Positions 5,817-47,555 of a DNA stretch of 64,000 bases are shown here, piece by piece. The stretch is taken from contig NZ_FOFM01000001.1 of NCBI RefSeq assembly GCF_900110875.1, positions 806,001 through 870,000 of the forward strand. The letters are read 5' to 3'. Source of the stretch: Pseudovibrio axinellae. Lineage in GTDB: Bacteria > Pseudomonadota > Alphaproteobacteria > Rhizobiales > Stappiaceae. A program made the translations under genes and the position numbers. Position 1 is the first letter of the stretch. The number at the start of each line of letters is the position of its first letter. The notes beneath the pieces are model-generated. The model worked only from the letters and a program-made list of their open reading frames with translations. It did not search any database and was not told the origin of the DNA.

Positions 5817-7274
<1,458 letters not shown>

Positions 7275-7330: not shown

Positions 7331-7355
7331 CTTCTTATCCATATGACTTGGCCCC
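7331..7355 (+). repeat. Direct repeat, copy 1 (ccrM terminator leader)
   Basis: Twenty-five bases beginning CTTCTTATCCATATGAC recur at 8844-8868 with one substitution. The offset between copies is 1513 bp. Each copy lies about 120-150 bp before the start of one of the two paralogous genes described below. It is too long to be chance. Confidence 0.85.
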
Positions 7356-7384
7356 TATCGCGACGCGGTGGGGGCTTTTTTTAT
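7331..7384 (+). terminator. Terminator after ccrM, inside a duplicated segment
   Basis: The hairpin arms GCCCCTA (7351-7357) and TGGGGGC (about 7369-7375) are followed by seven T residues. The 20 bases before it, together with the 5' arm, recur almost exactly at 8844-8868, with a single A/T difference, in front of another terminator. The repeat marks the left edge of the proposed tandem duplication. Confidence 0.8.
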
Positions 7385-7471
7385 GGTTCGGTAAGGATGT
7401 TTTGCCGCTGTTTTCACGATTGGGCCTACCAAAAGTCTAGCGAGTATCTGGATAAATAAGAGGACCATCAG

Positions 7472-8341
7472 ATGCCAGTGGTACAGGACGATGCAACGCT
7501 ACAGTTGATTAGCGCAGACAACATCATGTTTGGGACCATCGACTTTGATAAGGATGACCCCGTTCTGAGCAATGACTATACTGTAAAGCAACTTCAAATG
7601 CCCAGTATGTACATGGGAAATGACGCCGATGTTGAAGCATCTCGATATCGACCATTTCATAGTAGTGGTTTCATGGTTGGACAGGCACAACAGCGGGTTT
7701 TCGGGATGTACAGTGAAGCGGTTTACATACAGAAAGCAACCTTGAAATCTACAGTAGTGGACAACTCCAGCGACAAATCAGCAAGCTTTATTTTGGGAAA
7801 AACTCCTAAGGAAGTACGAGACAAGCTCACATCTTTTAAAGCAGTCACAATCAAAATTTCTGACTTGATTGCGGCAAATGACGAATCTCAACCGGAAAAG
7901 AAAGCCAAGCATCCACTGAACCAGATTGTTTACGTCGAAGACGGCGCATTTGCAGGAACTTTTTGGATTACTCTGAAAGATAATAAGGGAAATTCGAAAT
8001 ATAATAATCTGCAAATCATGGACTGGGACATTACATCAACAAGTGACATACAAAAATTCCCCAATGAAAGAGAAAAAATACACTGGGGCCATACTTGTAT
8101 TGAACATAATAAGATCCGAGATTTTTATGCCGCTCTTCCTGACGTCGGATCAGACTCCTTTGACAACTTACTAAAACTTGGAAAATACCAGCAATTTCTG
8201 GTTTTGGTTTCTGGTAAGAACGACCTGAAAACCTGGGAAATTCTACCCAATGCAGAATGGCTCCCGCGATCTATGTATAATTTAAACGCAAAGGCTCAAC
8301 TTGATGCTGTGAAGTTGATGGCGTCTGGATTTGAGAGCTAG
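7472..8341 (+). CDS. Protein of an unrecognised family, paralogue 1
   Basis: A 289-aa protein that I cannot assign to any family. There is no signal peptide or membrane segment, so it is probably cytoplasmic. It is a diverged paralogue of the gene at 8995-9846. Both share, in order, an N-terminal LIS/LIQ..N.MFG block, QMPSMYMG (QMPSLYIG), SRYRPFHSSGF (LRYRPFHNSGF), FAGTFW (IAGTFW), EKIHWGH (GKIHWGH) and a C-terminal QLDAVK (QFDAIK). Between the blocks identity is low. AGAGGA precedes the ATG at good spacing. It directly follows the ccrM terminator and is followed by a 14-bp hairpin and the tyrS relic. The conserved histidine/aromatic blocks suggest a binding or catalytic site, but I infer no function. 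Confidence 0.85.
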   Translation: MPVVQDDATLQLISADNIMFGTIDFDKDDPVLSNDYTVKQLQMPSMYMGNDADVEASRYRPFHSSGFMVGQAQQRVFGMYSEAVYIQKATLKSTVVDNSSDKSASFILGKTPKEVRDKLTSFKAVTIKISDLIAANDESQPEKKAKHPLNQIVYVEDGAFAGTFWITLKDNKGNSKYNNLQIMDWDITSTSDIQKFPNEREKIHWGHTCIEHNKIRDFYAALPDVGSDSFDNLLKLGKYQQFLVLVSGKNDLKTWEILPNAEWLPRSMYNLNAKAQLDAVKLMASGFES

Positions 8342-8540
8342 GATACACTCCCAAAAAGATGCTGCCGACTTCCGAACTTAAACACTCGTAAAAACGATTA
8401 CATAGAGCATGTCACGCGAGTGAATATGAATGCAACATGTGTTAGCTGTTAGACTTCAACACATCGCGTTGACACTTACTTTTCTTAGTTCTCACATTTG
8501 CGGTTACGTCAATCGGTTGATGTCAGGATACTACAGATAA

Positions 8541-8572
8541 ACAAGCAGCCAGTGCACACACTGGCTGCTTGT
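8541..8572. terminator. Perfect 14-bp hairpin after paralogue 1
   Basis: Arms 8541-8554 (ACAAGCAGCCAGTG) and 8559-8572 (CACTGGCTGCTTGT) pair perfectly around a 4-nt CACA loop. There is no T run on either side, so it is not a classic intrinsic terminator. It lies between the end of paralogue 1 and the end of the tyrS relic, the place where an intergenic terminator would be expected. The preceding 200 bases (8342-8540) hold nothing I can identify. Confidence 0.5.
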
Positions 8573-8576
8573 AATC

Positions 8577-8846
8577 AGCATACATTAAACAAACTCCACC
8601 AGTACTATACGACATTTTCCGACTGCGCGTATTAGACGTTCGCCTGGCTCGAGGACGCCTTCAGATATTATGCGGTTTCTTCCAGAACGATGGATAAATT
8701 CAGGCTGACGCGTCCGCCTCGCGTTAGGCGGTAGGCTTCGCCGTCGCTGCTGGCAAAGCCGGTCTTTACCAGCAAGTTCAGCAGGCCGAGGCTGTGGACG
8801 AGAAGTGCTAGAGGAAACTCATGGCTGGCTGACTGAGATCCTCCTT
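8577..8846 (-). pseudogene. Decayed 3' fragment of tyrS (S4-domain end)
   Basis: Read on the minus strand, this stretch aligns over about 260 bp with the 3' end of intact tyrS (10389-10650), including the same final FV-stop. The readable remnant runs EDLSQP, then HEFPLALLVHSLGLLN, then GFASSDGEAYRL, SIVLEE, RIISEGVLEPGERL and LVEFV-stop, against the intact EDLSQP, HELPLTLLAKPLGLLE, GFAESNGEARRL, SIVLEE, RMISEGDLKPGERL and LVMFV-stop. Two single-base deletions, one after SQP and one after SIVLEE, break the frame. There is no start, catalytic domain or HIGH/KMSKS motif. It therefore cannot encode a synthetase and is a relic left by duplication. Nucleotide identity looks like roughly two thirds to three quarters by eye. 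Confidence 0.88.
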
Positions 8847-8868
8847 CTTATCCATATGACATGGCCCC
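8844..8868 (+). repeat. Direct repeat, copy 2
   Basis: The second copy of the 25-base element at 7331-7355, with one A/T difference. It abuts the broken end of the tyrS relic, so the boundary near 8841-8847 is the likely junction of the duplication. Confidence 0.85.
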
Positions 8869-8893
8869 TGCCTTTATAGGTAAGGGCTTTTTA
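8864..8893 (+). terminator. Diverged copy of the ccrM terminator
   Basis: A GCCC...GGGC hairpin with one internal mismatch is followed by TTTTTA. It is the counterpart of the terminator at 7351-7384, but here it follows the tyrS relic and has no plus-strand gene immediately before it to terminate. Confidence 0.65.
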
Positions 8894-8994
8894 TTGTTTG
8901 TTTACTCTGATCAAAAGGTGCGAGTTCTCCGCTTTCACTAAGTCTCTCCTCCACCGTCATTTTGGTGCGTTCAAAACAATTAAGAGAGATTTCA

Positions 8995-9846
8995 ATGTCC
9001 AGTGAGCAAACAAATTCCAGCCTGAAACTCATACAGCCGAAGAATGTTATGTTCGGCTCCTTAGGCCTTACAAAAAGCGATGATAAGGCAGATCTTAAAA
9101 ACATCAGCCCGACTACTCCGCAAATGCCTAGCCTGTATATCGGTGATAAATCGGCATCGCCAACACTGCGGTATCGCCCATTTCATAACAGCGGCTTTGT
9201 TGCCCTTACTAAAGAAGATCGGACCTACTTTATTTACTGCGAGAACCCTGATGTATCAAAACGCAAGATTGCAGAAGGTACATATAAAGACGATCAGAGT
9301 TTTGTAGACTATCTTGGGAACAGTGCGACAGAGATTACGCCAATCTTGAGAGACCTATCAACTCAATCCGTTACAAAGCAGCAGGTGTCTGGCTTTAATA
9401 ACGGGATCAACACCGACGCCTTCTCTGAACTGAAAGAAATTGTTCAGGTGGTCAGTGATGATATCGCGGGGACTTTCTGGGCACTCGTGGAAACAGATAG
9501 TGGCAAACTGTATTGCCCGATCCGCGTTGTCGATACCAAAACAAGCAATGTTCAGGACGACAAACTGCCTAAAGAAAGTGGTAAAATTCACTGGGGACAT
9601 TACCTTCTGCCCAGTGACTTTCTCGCCAACTACTATGAACGTAATACGGTCACGCTGGGATCTGAGCTCCTGCTCCATCTCTTTGGTCTTGGAAACTTCG
9701 CTCAAAACATGCCTGTCACATGTGACGGCCTGAGAGCAGAAGTAGTGCCCGGGAAGAAATTCCTTAGCCGCTCCAGTTGCAACAACGATATTGAAACTCA
9801 GTTTGACGCGATCAAGCAGGCGATCCTAGAGTTTGATATCGAGTAG
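8995..9846 (+). CDS. Protein of an unrecognised family, paralogue 2
   Basis: A protein of about 283 aa, the diverged sister of the gene at 7472-8341, sharing the blocks QMPSLYIG, LRYRPFHNSGF, IAGTFW, GKIHWGH and QFDAIK in the same order and spacing. No signal peptide, membrane helix or known domain is visible. I moved the start from an in-frame ATG at 8962 to 8995 because AAGAGAGA stands 7 nt before it, and the N-terminus (LKLIQPKNVMFG) then aligns with that of paralogue 1 without overhang. It is followed by a small hairpin and then the deaminase-like gene on the same strand. Both copies are intact and their motifs are conserved, which argues for selection rather than decay. The function is unknown. 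Confidence 0.85.
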   Translation: MSSEQTNSSLKLIQPKNVMFGSLGLTKSDDKADLKNISPTTPQMPSLYIGDKSASPTLRYRPFHNSGFVALTKEDRTYFIYCENPDVSKRKIAEGTYKDDQSFVDYLGNSATEITPILRDLSTQSVTKQQVSGFNNGINTDAFSELKEIVQVVSDDIAGTFWALVETDSGKLYCPIRVVDTKTSNVQDDKLPKESGKIHWGHYLLPSDFLANYYERNTVTLGSELLLHLFGLGNFAQNMPVTCDGLRAEVVPGKKFLSRSSCNNDIETQFDAIKQAILEFDIE

Positions 9847-9859
9847 AAATTGTGCACCG

Positions 9860-9890
9860 CCCTGCTAGGTTTTACTAGCAGGGTTTACTC
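9860..9890 (+). terminator. Hairpin after paralogue 2
   Basis: The perfect 9-bp stem CCCTGCTAG (9860-9868) / CTAGCAGGG (9875-9883) has a 6-nt loop and only three T residues after it, so it is a weak intrinsic terminator or an attenuator before the deaminase-like gene. Confidence 0.6.
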
Positions 9891-9939
9891 CTGCTATGTT
9901 CAATGAACCCAATATATTTGATGAGTAAGTTTTCGCAGT

Positions 9940-10347
9940 ATGACTATTGAGCAAACTCTATACGACGAAGCCAAGCGACTGGTTGAGCGTCGCTACCCCA
10001 CTGGGTGGGGTGGTGCAGCCTCTATCATGACTGAGAGTGGCAAAATCCTGACAAGCGTTGCACCAGATACTAAAAATGACGGGCTCTCTTTATGCATGGA
10101 AGTTGGTGCCATTTTAGAAGCACATAAGCTGGATGAGGTTGTAACTCATTCAACGTGCATCTGCCGCGAAGACGAGAAAAGCCCCTTCGTTATCCTTACA
10201 CCCTGCGGGATTTGTCAGGAGCGTCTGGTGCATTGGGGTGGGAATGTGCAGGCAGCTATATCCAACGTGGATAACACGCTGACCTTTAAAAGCCTGCGGG
10301 AATTGCAACCGTATCACTGGTCGATTGTGAATGGTGAGAGGTTATAG
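9940..10347 (+). CDS. Cytidine-deaminase-like protein (blasticidin-S deaminase type)
   Basis: A 135-aa single-domain protein. The zinc site of the cytidine deaminase family is visible as C-x-E in LCMEVGAI (near residue 52) and P-C-x-x-C in TPCGICQERL (near residues 88-91). This gives three cysteine ligands and the proton-shuttling glutamate. The usual CAE is CME here. The N-terminal YPTGWGGAASI takes the place of the normal nucleoside-binding segment, and the C-terminal SLRELQPYHW resembles blasticidin-S deaminase. The substrate cannot be told from the sequence: a free nucleoside, a modified nucleoside or an aminoacylnucleoside antibiotic are all possible. It lies between paralogue 2 and tyrS and has no counterpart in the first duplicated unit. 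Confidence 0.8.
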   Translation: MTIEQTLYDEAKRLVERRYPTGWGGAASIMTESGKILTSVAPDTKNDGLSLCMEVGAILEAHKLDEVVTHSTCICREDEKSPFVILTPCGICQERLVHWGGNVQAAISNVDNTLTFKSLRELQPYHWSIVNGERL

Positions 10348-10357
10348 TTTGTGAAGA

Positions 10358-10382
10358 GGTGACCAACTCCAAGCTGGCCACC
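10358..10382 (-). terminator. Hairpin at the tyrS 3' end
   Basis: On the minus strand GGTGGCCAGC and GTTGGTCACC pair over 10 bp with two G-U wobbles, directly after the tyrS stop. The U tract is weak. On the plus strand the same hairpin has two mismatches but is followed by TTTTT, so it may serve both convergent genes. Confidence 0.55.
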
Positions 10383-10392
10383 AATTTTTCAT

Positions 10393-11664
10393 TTAAACAA
10401 ACATCACCAGTGCCTTACGCCGTTTGCCGACTGCTAGTGTCAAGCGTTCACCCGGCTTAAGATCTCCTTCAGAAATCATGCGCGCTTCCTCAAGAACGAT
10501 GGATGAGTTCAGACGGACGCCGCCACCTCGAATGAGACGCCGGGCTTCTCCGTTGCTTTCTGCAAATCCGACTTGGACCAGCAGCTCTAAAAGGCCAAGT
10601 GGTTTGGCGAGCAGTGTTAGAGGAAGCTCGTGGGTGGGTTGGCTTAGGTCTTCCTGTCCGCCGAACAAGGCTTCTCCCTGCTGAAGAGCTGCTTCTGCTG
10701 CGGCCAGACCGTGCACTATACCGGTGACCTGGGTTGCCAGTATCTTCTTGGCTTCGTTCAGCTCTGGCCCCTTCAAGGATGCAAGGCGGTCAATTTCACC
10801 CAGTGGAAGTTCTGTAAACAGTTTCAAGAAACGCGGCACATCGGCATCGTCTGCATTGCGCCAGAACTGCCAGAAGCCGAAGCTGGACAGGCGGGATGGG
10901 TTGAGCCAAACCGCACCTTCTGCTGTTTTGCCCATTTTGCTGCCCGAAGCTGTTGTCAGCAGTGGTAGCGTAAAGCCAAACAGTTGATTGCCTGACCGTC
11001 GACCGAGATCTACGCCATTGACGATGTTGCCCCATTGGTCTGACCCACCGATTTGCAGCGTACAATCAACCCGCTTGTTAAGCTCCACAAAGTCAACTGC
11101 TTGCAGCATCATGTAGCAGAATTCCAGAACAGAGAGCGGCTGCTGCGCTTCAAGGCGAGAGCGGACGCTGTCGAAGGTCATCATGCGGTTGACGGTGAAG
11201 TGGGTGCCGAAGTCACGCAGGAACTCAAGGAAGCGGAATTCATCTAACCACTCAGCGTTGTTGATGATTTGGCCCTGCCCTTCTGAAAGGTCAAAGAGGC
11301 GCTCTACAGTGGCACGGATGCCAGCAAGATTGTGCTCTATCTGCGCGTCATCGAGAAGCGGACGGCTTTCGCTTCGAAAGCTTGGATCTCCAACACGGGT
11401 GGTCCCGCCACCAACCAACAGGATTGGTCTATGTCCGGTTTTTTGGAGCCAGCGCATCGCCATCAGCGGCAGGAGGTGACCAACATGCAGACTGTCGGCA
11501 GTTGCATCAAAACCAGCGTAAGCCGTGATTGGGCCAGCGGTAAGCTTGGCGTCCAGCGCCTCAAGATCCGTGCACTGATGCAGGAACCCGCGATCAATCA
11601 GCAGCTGGAGGGCTTCAGATTTAGGGCGAAAACTGCGAGTTGTGTCGATAGTTGCGAGGTTCAT
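10393..11664 (-). CDS. tyrS: Tyrosyl-tRNA synthetase
   Basis: Charges tRNA-Tyr with tyrosine. The 423-aa length is normal. The class I signatures are HVGH (residues 60-63, after TAYAGFDATADS) and a KMSKS-type KMGKT (near 245). The tyrosine-binding QIGGSDQWGN block is present. A C-terminal S4 RNA-binding domain (about 355-420) contains GFAESNGEARRLIRGGGV. It converges on the deaminase-like gene. Its 3' quarter exists a second time as the relic at 8577-8846; this copy is complete and is the functional one. Confidence 0.97.
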   Translation of the reverse strand: MNLATIDTTRSFRPKSEALQLLIDRGFLHQCTDLEALDAKLTAGPITAYAGFDATADSLHVGHLLPLMAMRWLQKTGHRPILLVGGGTTRVGDPSFRSESRPLLDDAQIEHNLAGIRATVERLFDLSEGQGQIINNAEWLDEFRFLEFLRDFGTHFTVNRMMTFDSVRSRLEAQQPLSVLEFCYMMLQAVDFVELNKRVDCTLQIGGSDQWGNIVNGVDLGRRSGNQLFGFTLPLLTTASGSKMGKTAEGAVWLNPSRLSSFGFWQFWRNADDADVPRFLKLFTELPLGEIDRLASLKGPELNEAKKILATQVTGIVHGLAAAEAALQQGEALFGGQEDLSQPTHELPLTLLAKPLGLLELLVQVGFAESNGEARRLIRGGGVRLNSSIVLEEARMISEGDLKPGERLTLAVGKRRKALVMFV

Positions 11665-12131: not shown

Positions 12132-13034
12132 ATGATCATTATCAACCTGAAAGGGCGGTTGGGGAATCAGCTTTTTCAGTGGGCTGCTGCCCGTTTTGTT
12201 GCTGAAAATCTACAAAGTGAGATTGTGGTTTGTTCAGGTGAAAGCAACCGAAAGGCAGGCATTACACCTTCCTTAATGGGTTTCAACCTGCCCACGCGCG
12301 TTGCTCAACCTAAGGACTTTCGAAAGGTCTTTTTTCCATTTCGTAAATTCTCAAAGCAATTGCAGCAGGTTATGCCGCATCTTCGCGCTTATGGCGGCAA
12401 ACAAATACAGAGCATTGAGGAATTGGAGAAGGCTCGTCAGAATGCAAAAGCGCCGCATCTTTTTCTCAATGGGTACTTTATGTCCTCCCATATTGCTGAG
12501 AGGGTGCGGGATAAGTTGCTCATAGATTTGACCATTCCAGAACTCTCTCAGGCACGTCAGCGCTTCCTTGGTGTGGTGGAAGCACCCAATTCTGTGGCTT
12601 TGCATATCCGGCGCGGTGATTTTCTGGAAAACTCTACCCGCGAGGCCTATGGGCTTTGCAGCATAGAGTATTATCTACGCGCACTGAGCTATCTGGAAGG
12701 TAAGCTGGGGCCTCTAAAACCAGTTGTATTTTCAGATGACATCGCCTGGTGCAAGGAAGCTCTTTCCCATGTTGAAAGGGTTACATTTTTCGATGTTCCT
12801 TCAGATGGGAAAGATGTTGAGGATTTGGTATTGATGTCCCGCTGTGCGCATCAAGTGATTGCGAACAGCACCTACAGCTGGTGGGCTGCCTACCTGAACA
12901 CATCTCCCAGCAAACTCGTCGTGGCGCCTTCTCCCTGGCACGCAAAGAATGATCATCGGAATACGCTCTTCTTGCCAAAGGGCTGGCACAAAATTCATAA
13001 ATACGCCGACCCCGTCTTGAGCTCAGCATCTTAA
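12132..13034 (+). CDS. GT11 glycosyltransferase (alpha-1,2-fucosyltransferase family), copy 1
   Basis: Predicted to transfer fucose from GDP-fucose in alpha-1,2 linkage to a galactose-containing glycan; the acceptor is unknown. The protein is 300 aa, normal for bacterial GT11. Signatures are the N-terminal GRLGNQLFQWAAAR, the GDP-binding HIRRGDF (near residue 159), GLCSIEYY, VVFSDD and the C-terminal NSTYSWWAAYLN. No signal peptide or membrane helix is present, as is usual for this cytoplasmic or peripheral enzyme. GGGGTGAGAG precedes the ATG. A second GT11 gene follows 0.9 kb away on the same strand, with a HAD gene on the opposite strand between them. Confidence 0.92.
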   Translation: MIIINLKGRLGNQLFQWAAARFVAENLQSEIVVCSGESNRKAGITPSLMGFNLPTRVAQPKDFRKVFFPFRKFSKQLQQVMPHLRAYGGKQIQSIEELEKARQNAKAPHLFLNGYFMSSHIAERVRDKLLIDLTIPELSQARQRFLGVVEAPNSVALHIRRGDFLENSTREAYGLCSIEYYLRALSYLEGKLGPLKPVVFSDDIAWCKEALSHVERVTFFDVPSDGKDVEDLVLMSRCAHQVIANSTYSWWAAYLNTSPSKLVVAPSPWHAKNDHRNTLFLPKGWHKIHKYADPVLSSAS

Positions 13035-13753: not shown

Positions 13754-13963
13754 CACAAATCCACTAGGTTATAGAGTCCGACTCTTATCAATCAGAATGG
13801 CGATTTAATGGATAATTGCGTTCAAAATGCAACTTAAACTCGTATTCATCGCGGCCTGTCGGCATTCACTCAGAGATTTACTCCCAAAAACCTAGTAGTG
13901 AGCCTTTGACAAAGCTCGGTTAGGTTGAGACACAACAAAGCTGGTTTGTGTTTTGGGGGACGT

Positions 13964-14893
13964 ATGTCAGTTGCTTCTCAAGTGCGAAAGTCTGGTGTTG
14001 TTCGTCGGCGAAAGCTCAAGCCTACATTAATTGTCCGTATTCGTGGGGGCATTGGCAATCAGCTTTTTCAATACGCGCTCGGACGTAAAATCACCCTTGA
14101 AACTGGGATGAAGCTCCGGTTTGACCGAAGTGAGTATGACAAATACTTCAATCGCTCCTACTGCCTCAACCTTTTGAAGACACAAGGTTTATCGGCGACT
14201 GAATCTGAAATACTATCAGTGCTCTGGCCTGCGCAATCCTTTGGGCAAACGGTACGGATATGCCGAAAGTTCTACCCGTTTTATCAACGCAGATACCGGC
14301 GGGAAGATGAGTTGTTGCAAAATAGGGAAGTCCCGGTGCTCAAGCAGAGCGCTTATCTTGATGGCTACTGGCAGAAATGGGAGATACCATTTTCGATCGA
14401 AGAGCTGCTGCGAAAAGAGATCGTCCTCAAGAAACCAATGGTTATGGATCGATTGAAGTTGTTGCAACGGATCAAGTCCGGCCCATCAGCTGCTCTTCAC
14501 GTGCGTTATGGCGATTATAGTCAGGCCCATAATCTCCAGAACTTTGGGTTGTGCTCTCCTGGTTATTACAAGGGGGCTATGGATTTCCTGTCCGAACGAA
14601 TCCCCGGACTGACCTTCTACGTCTTCTCAGACAGCCCTGAACGGGCGCGAGAGGTGATCCCCCAACAGGACAATGTTTATTTTGCAGATTCAATCCAAGA
14701 TGGAAACGACTTTGAAGATCTTATGGTGATGTCATCCTGCGACCACATTGTAACCGCCAACAGCACCTTTAGCTGGTGGGCAGCATTTTTGAATGAGAAT
14801 GAAGCAAAGCATGTGATCGCTCCGCTCAAGTGGTACAAAAACCCAAGGTTGGATGACAGTCTGATCGTCCCTTCCCATTGGCAGCGGCTTTAA
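13964..14893 (+). CDS. GT11 glycosyltransferase (alpha-1,2-fucosyltransferase family), copy 2
   Basis: The second fucosyltransferase-like protein, 309 aa from this start. It has RIRGGIGNQLFQYALGRK, a GDP-binding HVRYGDY, GLCSPGYY, VFSDSPE and NSTFSWWAAFLN, the full set of GT11 motifs. It differs clearly from the copy at 12132, so it likely uses another acceptor. GGGGGA lies just before the chosen ATG; an in-frame ATG at 13925 would add 13 residues without a better ribosome binding site. The basic N-terminal tail (VRRRKLKP) may bind membrane lipids. Together with the GT61 gene this makes a small glycan-modifying cluster. Confidence 0.92.
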   Translation: MSVASQVRKSGVVRRRKLKPTLIVRIRGGIGNQLFQYALGRKITLETGMKLRFDRSEYDKYFNRSYCLNLLKTQGLSATESEILSVLWPAQSFGQTVRICRKFYPFYQRRYRREDELLQNREVPVLKQSAYLDGYWQKWEIPFSIEELLRKEIVLKKPMVMDRLKLLQRIKSGPSAALHVRYGDYSQAHNLQNFGLCSPGYYKGAMDFLSERIPGLTFYVFSDSPERAREVIPQQDNVYFADSIQDGNDFEDLMVMSSCDHIVTANSTFSWWAAFLNENEAKHVIAPLKWYKNPRLDDSLIVPSHWQRL

Positions 14894-46805: not shown

Positions 46806-47555
46806 CTAATCCCGCAGAGGGATTACAGGCACTTTCCCCGCACGGATGCGGTTGGTTCTCCAGTTCATCACGTGACGAATACCATTCTCATAAAGCACCT
46901 TCATCACTGGCGAAAACGCCTGCATGTGCTCGGCGTAGAAGTCGTCGGGGCTCGTATATGTACCGAAGTCATTGTTGATGCCTGTTTTCTGGATGTAGGT
47001 GTCCTGCCCTAGCCAGTTGACTTGTGGCGCGCTGAGGCAGTTGGTGCCAACGCCATAGCCACAGAGAGATTCTCTGCTTGGCACAAACTTCTGCTGCAAG
47101 GCAGAGAGAAAAACATCATCCAGAATGAAGCCTTCCAGATTGATCCAGCGGTCTTCCAGATAGATCTCAACCCACGAGTGGAGAATGTTATCCGGGGCGA
47201 TCTTATAGACCAACTCCGGCACCACACCGCGCTGCAATTCTTTATTAATGGTGAAGCCGTGCAGACGGCAGGGAACTCCAACGGCTCGCATCAGTGCCAT
47301 GAGGAGAGTGCCTTTCGTGTTGCACTGTCCGATTCCATCAGCCAGCACCTGACTTGCTTGAATATTGTCTGCTTTGTTGTAGCCAAACAGGATTTCATTG
47401 CGGACAAAGTCGTAGATTGCTCCAGCACGATCAAAGAGAGGTAGGTCCTTCCATTTGCGCTGATCAACAAGCTGCCGGATTGTTGGCGCTCTAAAGTTGA
47501 GTAGTTGGGTTTCCTTGAGCGGGTTTTCTAATTGCGTGTTGGGTTTGTCTAGCAT
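46806..47555 (-). CDS. Transglutaminase-like domain protein
   Basis: A 249-aa protein with a transglutaminase/papain-like core. The catalytic cysteine is in GIGQCNTKGTLL and the histidine in ILHSWVEIYLEDRW; the third position, usually Asp, appears as E in INLEGF. GGAGGCG precedes the ATG. There is no signal peptide or membrane helix, so it is probably cytoplasmic. Substrate and reaction are unknown. It is convergent with tldD. Confidence 0.85.
   Translation of the reverse strand: MLDKPNTQLENPLKETQLLNFRAPTIRQLVDQRKWKDLPLFDRAGAIYDFVRNEILFGYNKADNIQASQVLADGIGQCNTKGTLLMALMRAVGVPCRLHGFTINKELQRGVVPELVYKIAPDNILHSWVEIYLEDRWINLEGFILDDVFLSALQQKFVPSRESLCGYGVGTNCLSAPQVNWLGQDTYIQKTGINNDFGTYTSPDDFYAEHMQAFSPVMKVLYENGIRHVMNWRTNRIRAGKVPVIPLRD

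Follow-up and report, generated by a model that had tools for sequence, protein, structure and literature searches.

A decayed tyrS tail between ccrM and tyrS of Pseudovibrio axinellae as the scar of a probable gene gain from another lineage

How did two distantly related genes and a broken piece of tyrS come to lie between ccrM and the intact tyrosyl-tRNA synthetase gene (tyrS) of Pseudovibrio axinellae? The window analysed is a stretch of 64,000 nt from this organism (GCF_900110875.1, contig NZ_FOFM01000001.1, positions 806,001–870,000; coded G000 among the genomes compared). From ccrM to tyrS it contains a first copy of the ccrM terminator, a gene that we call P1, a decayed tyrS 3′ end with a hairpin, a second terminator copy, a relative of P1 that we call P2, and a deaminase gene. 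An earlier, sequence-only reading described this order, and its coordinates hold, with ccrM ending at 7274. The locus is a real, well-preserved recombination scar, ordinary in kind and unusually readable. Our favoured explanation, which we consider fairly probable, is that a fragment carrying P1 and the end of a tyrS gene integrated from another Pseudovibrio lineage, by homology on the ccrM side and by a short-homology join at its other end.

The tyrS relic (8585–8845, minus strand) corresponds to the last ~87 codons of the gene, lies in the same orientation as intact tyrS (tyrS-1; 10393–11664, minus strand; TIGR00234, 5e-110) and was delimited by nucleotide alignment to 10393–10655. Counted from the stop codon, 189 of 264 columns are identical to the intact tail, with 4 gap columns, and the alignment scores 216, whereas none of 100 single-base shuffles exceeded 40. 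This upholds the claim that a decayed tyrS 3′ end follows the first paralogue. A genome-wide tyrS search also recovers the relic. Its frame is broken: translation finds no frame open throughout, two pieces match the tyrS protein in different frames, and the matching frame shifts near the relic's 3′ end. A nearby TAA (8848–8850) falls just outside the relic, inside terminator copy 2. On the relic's 3′ side stands a hairpin terminator with a 14-pair stem (8541–8572, minus strand), which belongs to the displaced tyrS end; relatives carry hairpin-like sequence at the matching position (alignment, by eye).

The other repeated part is the ccrM terminator. The gene itself (6180–7274, plus strand) encodes an adenine DNA methyltransferase with a RAMA domain (Pfam N6_N4_Mtase, 4.6e-64, and RAMA, 1.2e-17, in a run on 6117–7274). 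Terminator copy 1 (7331–7376, plus strand) comprises a 25-base element, a 12-pair hairpin (7350–7376) and a T run. The element recurs at 8844–8868, at the claimed offset of 1513 and with the claimed single difference, within terminator copy 2 (8844–8887, plus strand), whose hairpin is weaker (7 pairs). The two terminator stretches align with a score of 59, a value that 200 shuffles never approached beyond 32; neither this repeat nor the tyrS match vanished at the nucleotide level. The hairpin loops differ between the copies, and each type is common to different relatives: that of copy 1 to G024, that of copy 2 to G021 (Pseudovibrio sp. Ad37), G013 and G023. Together with the P2 leader (8888–8994, plus strand), copy 2 matches the ccrM–P2 spacer of Ad37 (8844–8994; 109 of 145 aligned bases identical), with a score of 62.5 compared with 28.5 against copy 1. 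This spacer is the best match among nine genomes compared, the next being that of G013 (41.0). At 8840–8847, in agreement with the junction previously placed near 8841–8847, tyrS sequence passes directly into the ccrM terminator, and by eye about six bases, all or some of GATCCT, are compatible with either side. The junction thus has the appearance of a join at a non-homologous site over few matching bases.

P1 (289 amino acids; 7472–8341, plus strand) and P2 (283 amino acids; 8995–9846, plus strand) belong to the same uncharacterised protein family. Both are open, and their proteins are 29% identical, which bears out the description of the paralogues as strongly diverged yet intact; only one 29-base stretch is alike in DNA (79%). 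Judged from these comparisons, they are homologous relatives and not recent copies. The tree distance between them is about 3.06 changes per site, compared with 0.21 between P2 and its 80% identical orthologue in Ad37, the only genome of the genome contig collection found to hold a P2 relative. P2 groups with the Ad37 copy with full support (100/100) and P1 falls outside. If P2 descended vertically in both strains, the closeness of its two copies and the depth of the P1–P2 split imply that the gene pair predates the separation of P. axinellae from Ad37.

The relic appears to be much younger. Its branch lengths at codon positions 1, 2 and 3 are 0.158, 0.167 and 0.434, position 3 exceeding position 2 in 60 of 60 bootstraps, and the second-position branch in ten functional tyrS tails is only 0.008–0.068. 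This excess of third-position change looks as if most of the divergence arose while the sequence was still coding, and the pattern fits divergence mostly as a coding sequence elsewhere, followed by about 0.15 changes per site of decay. P1 was simulated under random substitution (substitutions only, indels left out; P1 has no close relative) and stayed free of stop codons in 1.0% of 2000 trials at 0.15 per site, in 4.5% at 0.10 and in 18% at 0.05. The small number of stop-free trials makes it likely that P1 has been under selection.

These ages bear on the proposal that an ancestral unit of ccrM terminator, gene and tyrS 3′ end was duplicated in tandem. In such a history, the unit would have been doubled within this lineage when the tyrS 3′ end recombined with the ccrM terminator by unequal or illegitimate exchange. 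One of the two genes would later have diverged rapidly or been replaced by a foreign allele, and unit 1 would have lost its deaminase. The geometry and junction are exactly those expected of this exchange, and placing the relic as sister of the strain's own tyrS is not rejected by the approximately unbiased (AU) test (p 0.47). With that placement the codon-position signal weakens (second-position branch 0.139, third-position 0.333): of 200 bootstraps, only 188 put position 3 above position 2 and 186 put it above position 1. A duplication in this lineage would, however, leave genes with a common ancestor as old as the relic and two units of the same gene content, and the locus seems to hold neither. 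The P1–P2 split is older than the lineage and far older than the decay of the relic, unit 1 shows no trace of a deaminase (8342–8584; a score of 19 is reached by 96 of 100 shuffles), and the differing loop types and the excess of third-position change also speak against it. With the caveat of the own-tyrS placement, we reject in-place tandem duplication as the sole origin of the locus, and we regard the fuller version, with later fast divergence or overwriting, as rather unlikely.

The layout that preceded P1 and the relic can be approached through Ad37. Divergence from this strain at fourfold (synonymous) sites is 0.53 for P2, 0.50 for the deaminase and 0.52 for tyrS, like that of most surrounding genes, and P2 shows nonsynonymous and synonymous rates (dN and dS) of 0.13 and 1.29. 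The deaminase gene (9940–10347, plus strand) is of the PRK08298 cytidine deaminase type (NF006155, 5.6e-57, 191.5 bits against a cutoff of 129; its Pfam match is under that family's cutoff), and it accompanies P2 in both known P2 units, those of P. axinellae and Ad37. This background level of divergence, together with the match of terminator copy 2 and the P2 leader to Ad37, indicates that the older layout was probably that of Ad37 and that P1 and the relic are an addition.

From these parts and relationships we infer the following donor, direction and manner of joining. The ancestor would have had the order seen in Ad37: ccrM, terminator, P2, deaminase, tyrS. A fragment from another Pseudovibrio lineage, holding the ccrM side, a terminator, P1 and a tyrS 3′ end, would have entered, its ccrM side joining by ordinary homologous recombination. 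Its other end, within the donor tyrS, would have been linked to the ccrM terminator of the recipient through a handful of matching bases, a case of homology-facilitated illegitimate recombination. The product would be P1 and a headless tyrS tail wedged ahead of the old terminator and P2; the useless tail would then have decayed while P1 and P2 both remained open.

A comparison of 16 genomes of the genus revealed that the content of the interval varies widely. ccrM is found in 16 of 16. The interval of Ad37 holds P2 and the deaminase, and those of G013, G014 and G016 hold a minus-strand gene and the deaminase (the G013 gene, the one searched against Pfam, is assigned to DUF4261). G024 has a P-family gene, a DUF418 gene and the deaminase; one P-family gene is present in G020, G022, G023 and G025, and two in G017 and G027. 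A PhoX gene occupies the interval in G026 (Pfam), and the same gene in G019 was recognised by open reading frame (ORF) likeness; G018 has 78 bases only. The deaminase occurs in 7 of 16 genomes, that of G015 at another place. All that G015 has beside ccrM is a diverged 3′ fragment of tyrS (L062:3951–4349; 49% identical over 300–422), and the one full-length tyrS of this genome is of a second type. A further full-length tyrS, 49–54% identical to tyrS-1, is present in each of the 16 genomes (in P. axinellae at G000:C76, elsewhere in the genome, 49% identical); this second gene may explain how the loss of tyrS-1 is possible. The earlier reading had advised looking for single copies or other cargo; relatives do show other cargo, and Ad37 carries the P2 unit alone. 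A single-copy P1 unit was found neither in a search with P1 of 61 relatives nor with the family profile in 87 genomes, and the donor is hypothetical for that reason.

A second scar, in G026, repeats this architecture at another gene and is more recent. The tyrS-2 tail stands there twice (L128:2960–3255 and 6090–6385); the displaced copy is identical to the intact tail at 283 of 296 columns, contains one stop and lies ~2.8 kb beyond the intact tyrS-2, with one methyl-accepting chemotaxis protein (MCP) gene between them. The G019 locus lacks the tail copy. Across the 16 genomes the cargo DNA (2835 bases) has a full match only in G026 itself; the other matches listed cover only positions 295–624, within the signalling domain.

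Displaced tails at two different tyrS genes of the genus, each about 260–300 bases long, are also what a small mobile element might leave if it targeted and restored the tyrS 3′ end and left the displaced end behind, the second possibility that the sequence-only reading had raised. This comes close in outcome, but no integrase-sized ORF accompanies the named genes (at least 60 amino acids here, at least 90 in G026). In the P. axinellae interval, a search for ORFs of at least 60 amino acids returned only P1, P2, the deaminase and ORFs overlapping these or the P2 leader, none of them an integrase. P1 relatives were absent from the plasmid and phage collections and from viral contigs, the latter examined with a single-protein scan that reaches close relatives only. 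The junction, moreover, lies on the ccrM terminator and has no clean attachment repeat. An integrase-borne element was rejected on the missing integrase ORF and on the failure of P1 and P2 to match any Pfam family, and we hold a mobile element of any such kind to be very improbable.

The ccrM end, which the favoured explanation makes the homologous anchor, was compared at fourfold sites. ccrM differs by 0.16, 0.23 and 0.35 from G021, G014 and G024, where most neighbours are at about 0.5–0.6; equally low values are found for three genes at −7057 to −4839, upstream of the window. ccrM is less diverged than tyrS in 45 of 45 genome pairs, so that constraint may account for the low values as well as recombination. 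For these reasons we do not treat ccrM as a proven recombination island.

Two other genes of the window drew attention in these comparisons. The gene at 46806–47555 has a fourfold-site divergence of 0.13 from G021 and 0.55 from G014, which suggests a recent exchange with a G021-like strain. The gene just past tyrS, at 12132–13034, has a best match of only 29–31% identity in the stretches retrieved from G021, G014 and G024 and may be strain-specific; by eye it resembles the gene at 13925–14893.

The age of the P1–P2 split and the codon pattern of the relic together argue for a foreign origin of the inserted piece. Several observations weigh against this account. The missing P1-only unit leaves the donor unfound, and the relic's nearest sequence, in G014, is only 75.5% identical and points to no clear donor. 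Since the own-tyrS placement passes the AU test, we regard the codon-position evidence as good without being conclusive. Unusual composition was flagged by the tree program for P1, P2 and the Ad37 copy, and this may have lengthened their branches. We see no crossover point at the ccrM anchor, whose low divergence could reflect constraint. Finally, the same recombination in the opposite direction, with P1 and an old tyrS native and the terminator, P2, deaminase and tyrS of an Ad37-like strain entering through tyrS homology, would yield the same product, the relic then being the native tyrS end. The G026 scar hints at this direction for its own locus: of the 13 sites at which its two tails differ, G019 shares the state of the relic at 9, that of the intact tail at 3 and that of neither at 1. 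Against it, P2, the deaminase and tyrS stand at genome-background divergence from Ad37, and a sliding comparison of tyrS (by eye) shows no mosaic break, a result that also led us to abandon the tyrS mosaic as a guide to the polarity of transfer. We consider the opposite direction unlikely.

Integration of a P1-bearing fragment would place this locus beside known systems. In homology-facilitated illegitimate recombination (PMC3240628), one end is homologous and the other illegitimate, the same arrangement as proposed here, where it is deduced from an old scar. A join that is homologous on one side and illegitimate on the other has likewise been proposed for the effector–immunity arrays of the Vibrio cholerae type VI secretion system (T6SS) by Kirchberger et al. 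(2017; PMC5361080). There, as here, a new module comes to lie beside a conserved region and shifts the older gene further away; one step of the model leaves the 3′ end of the displaced effector behind, as happened to the tyrS tail (PMC5361080). Unlike in those arrays, the broken gene here is the end of the housekeeping gene tyrS and the proposed anchor is ccrM; the P family is at most a candidate for an effector or immunity role. In rhs C-terminal displacement, new 3′ modules reportedly displace old ones, which persist as orphans, whereas at this locus whole genes seem to be exchanged and no shared 5′ core is fused to them. The open-licence literature yielded no paper on Pseudovibrio with ccrM or on ccrM with tyrS in alphaproteobacteria, and nothing evidently related on tyrS pseudogenes; the main text of a genus survey mentions neither ccrM nor tyrosyl (PMC5959193).

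The P family was characterised further. Searches of P1 and P2 against Pfam, NCBIfam and PADLOC up to an E value of 1 gave no match, and PHROG gave a single one (P1, E 0.27). The structure model of P2 has a mean pLDDT of 90.3, and no fold in PDB or BFVD matched it at E ≤ 0.001. The family alignment, made with 32 members, has 13 invariant columns (of 35 ORFs, 3 were dropped: L013 and L018 as near-duplicates and L029 because its start is unclear). Among 87 genomes of the taxonomic family, the family profile detects members in 25, spread over 3 of 7 genera; 397 genomes from the order, scored at up to 6 candidates per genome, gave 7 members, all in the same taxonomic family. Members occupy two sites, one in the ccrM–tyrS gap and the other close to groEL; of the 13 tree rows assigned to the second site, 12 show groEL within the flanking sequence retrieved and G007 does not. 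The family tree separates the two sites, and P1, P2 and the Ad37 copy form a third deep lineage found only between ccrM and tyrS. A relocation of P1 and P2 from the groEL site was considered and dropped: their apparent nearness to the groEL clade came from midpoint rooting only. As the tree is unrooted, we claim no nearness of this lineage to either site. A more speculative proposal, which we put forward as doubtful, is that the P family is an unrecognised, fast-evolving protein restricted to this taxonomic family, with a fold of its own and a role in rivalry or recognition between strains. The ccrM–tyrS gap would then be an exchange site that stacks new alleles before old ones, like immunity arrays, which would explain why P1 and P2 were retained while the tyrS scrap decays.

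On the favoured explanation, a puzzling relic turns into evidence of gene exchange between lineages that took place at a fixed position and can be dated, the tRNA-synthetase tail serving as the clock, and the tyrS-2 scar of G026 suggests that such gene gain has recurred in Pseudovibrio. The small space between two housekeeping genes can thus be a place where fast-evolving genes of uncharacterised function are exchanged and accumulate. The locus also brings out the P family, with its two sites, a structure predicted with confidence and no known relatives among the searches made here, as one whose role is directly testable.

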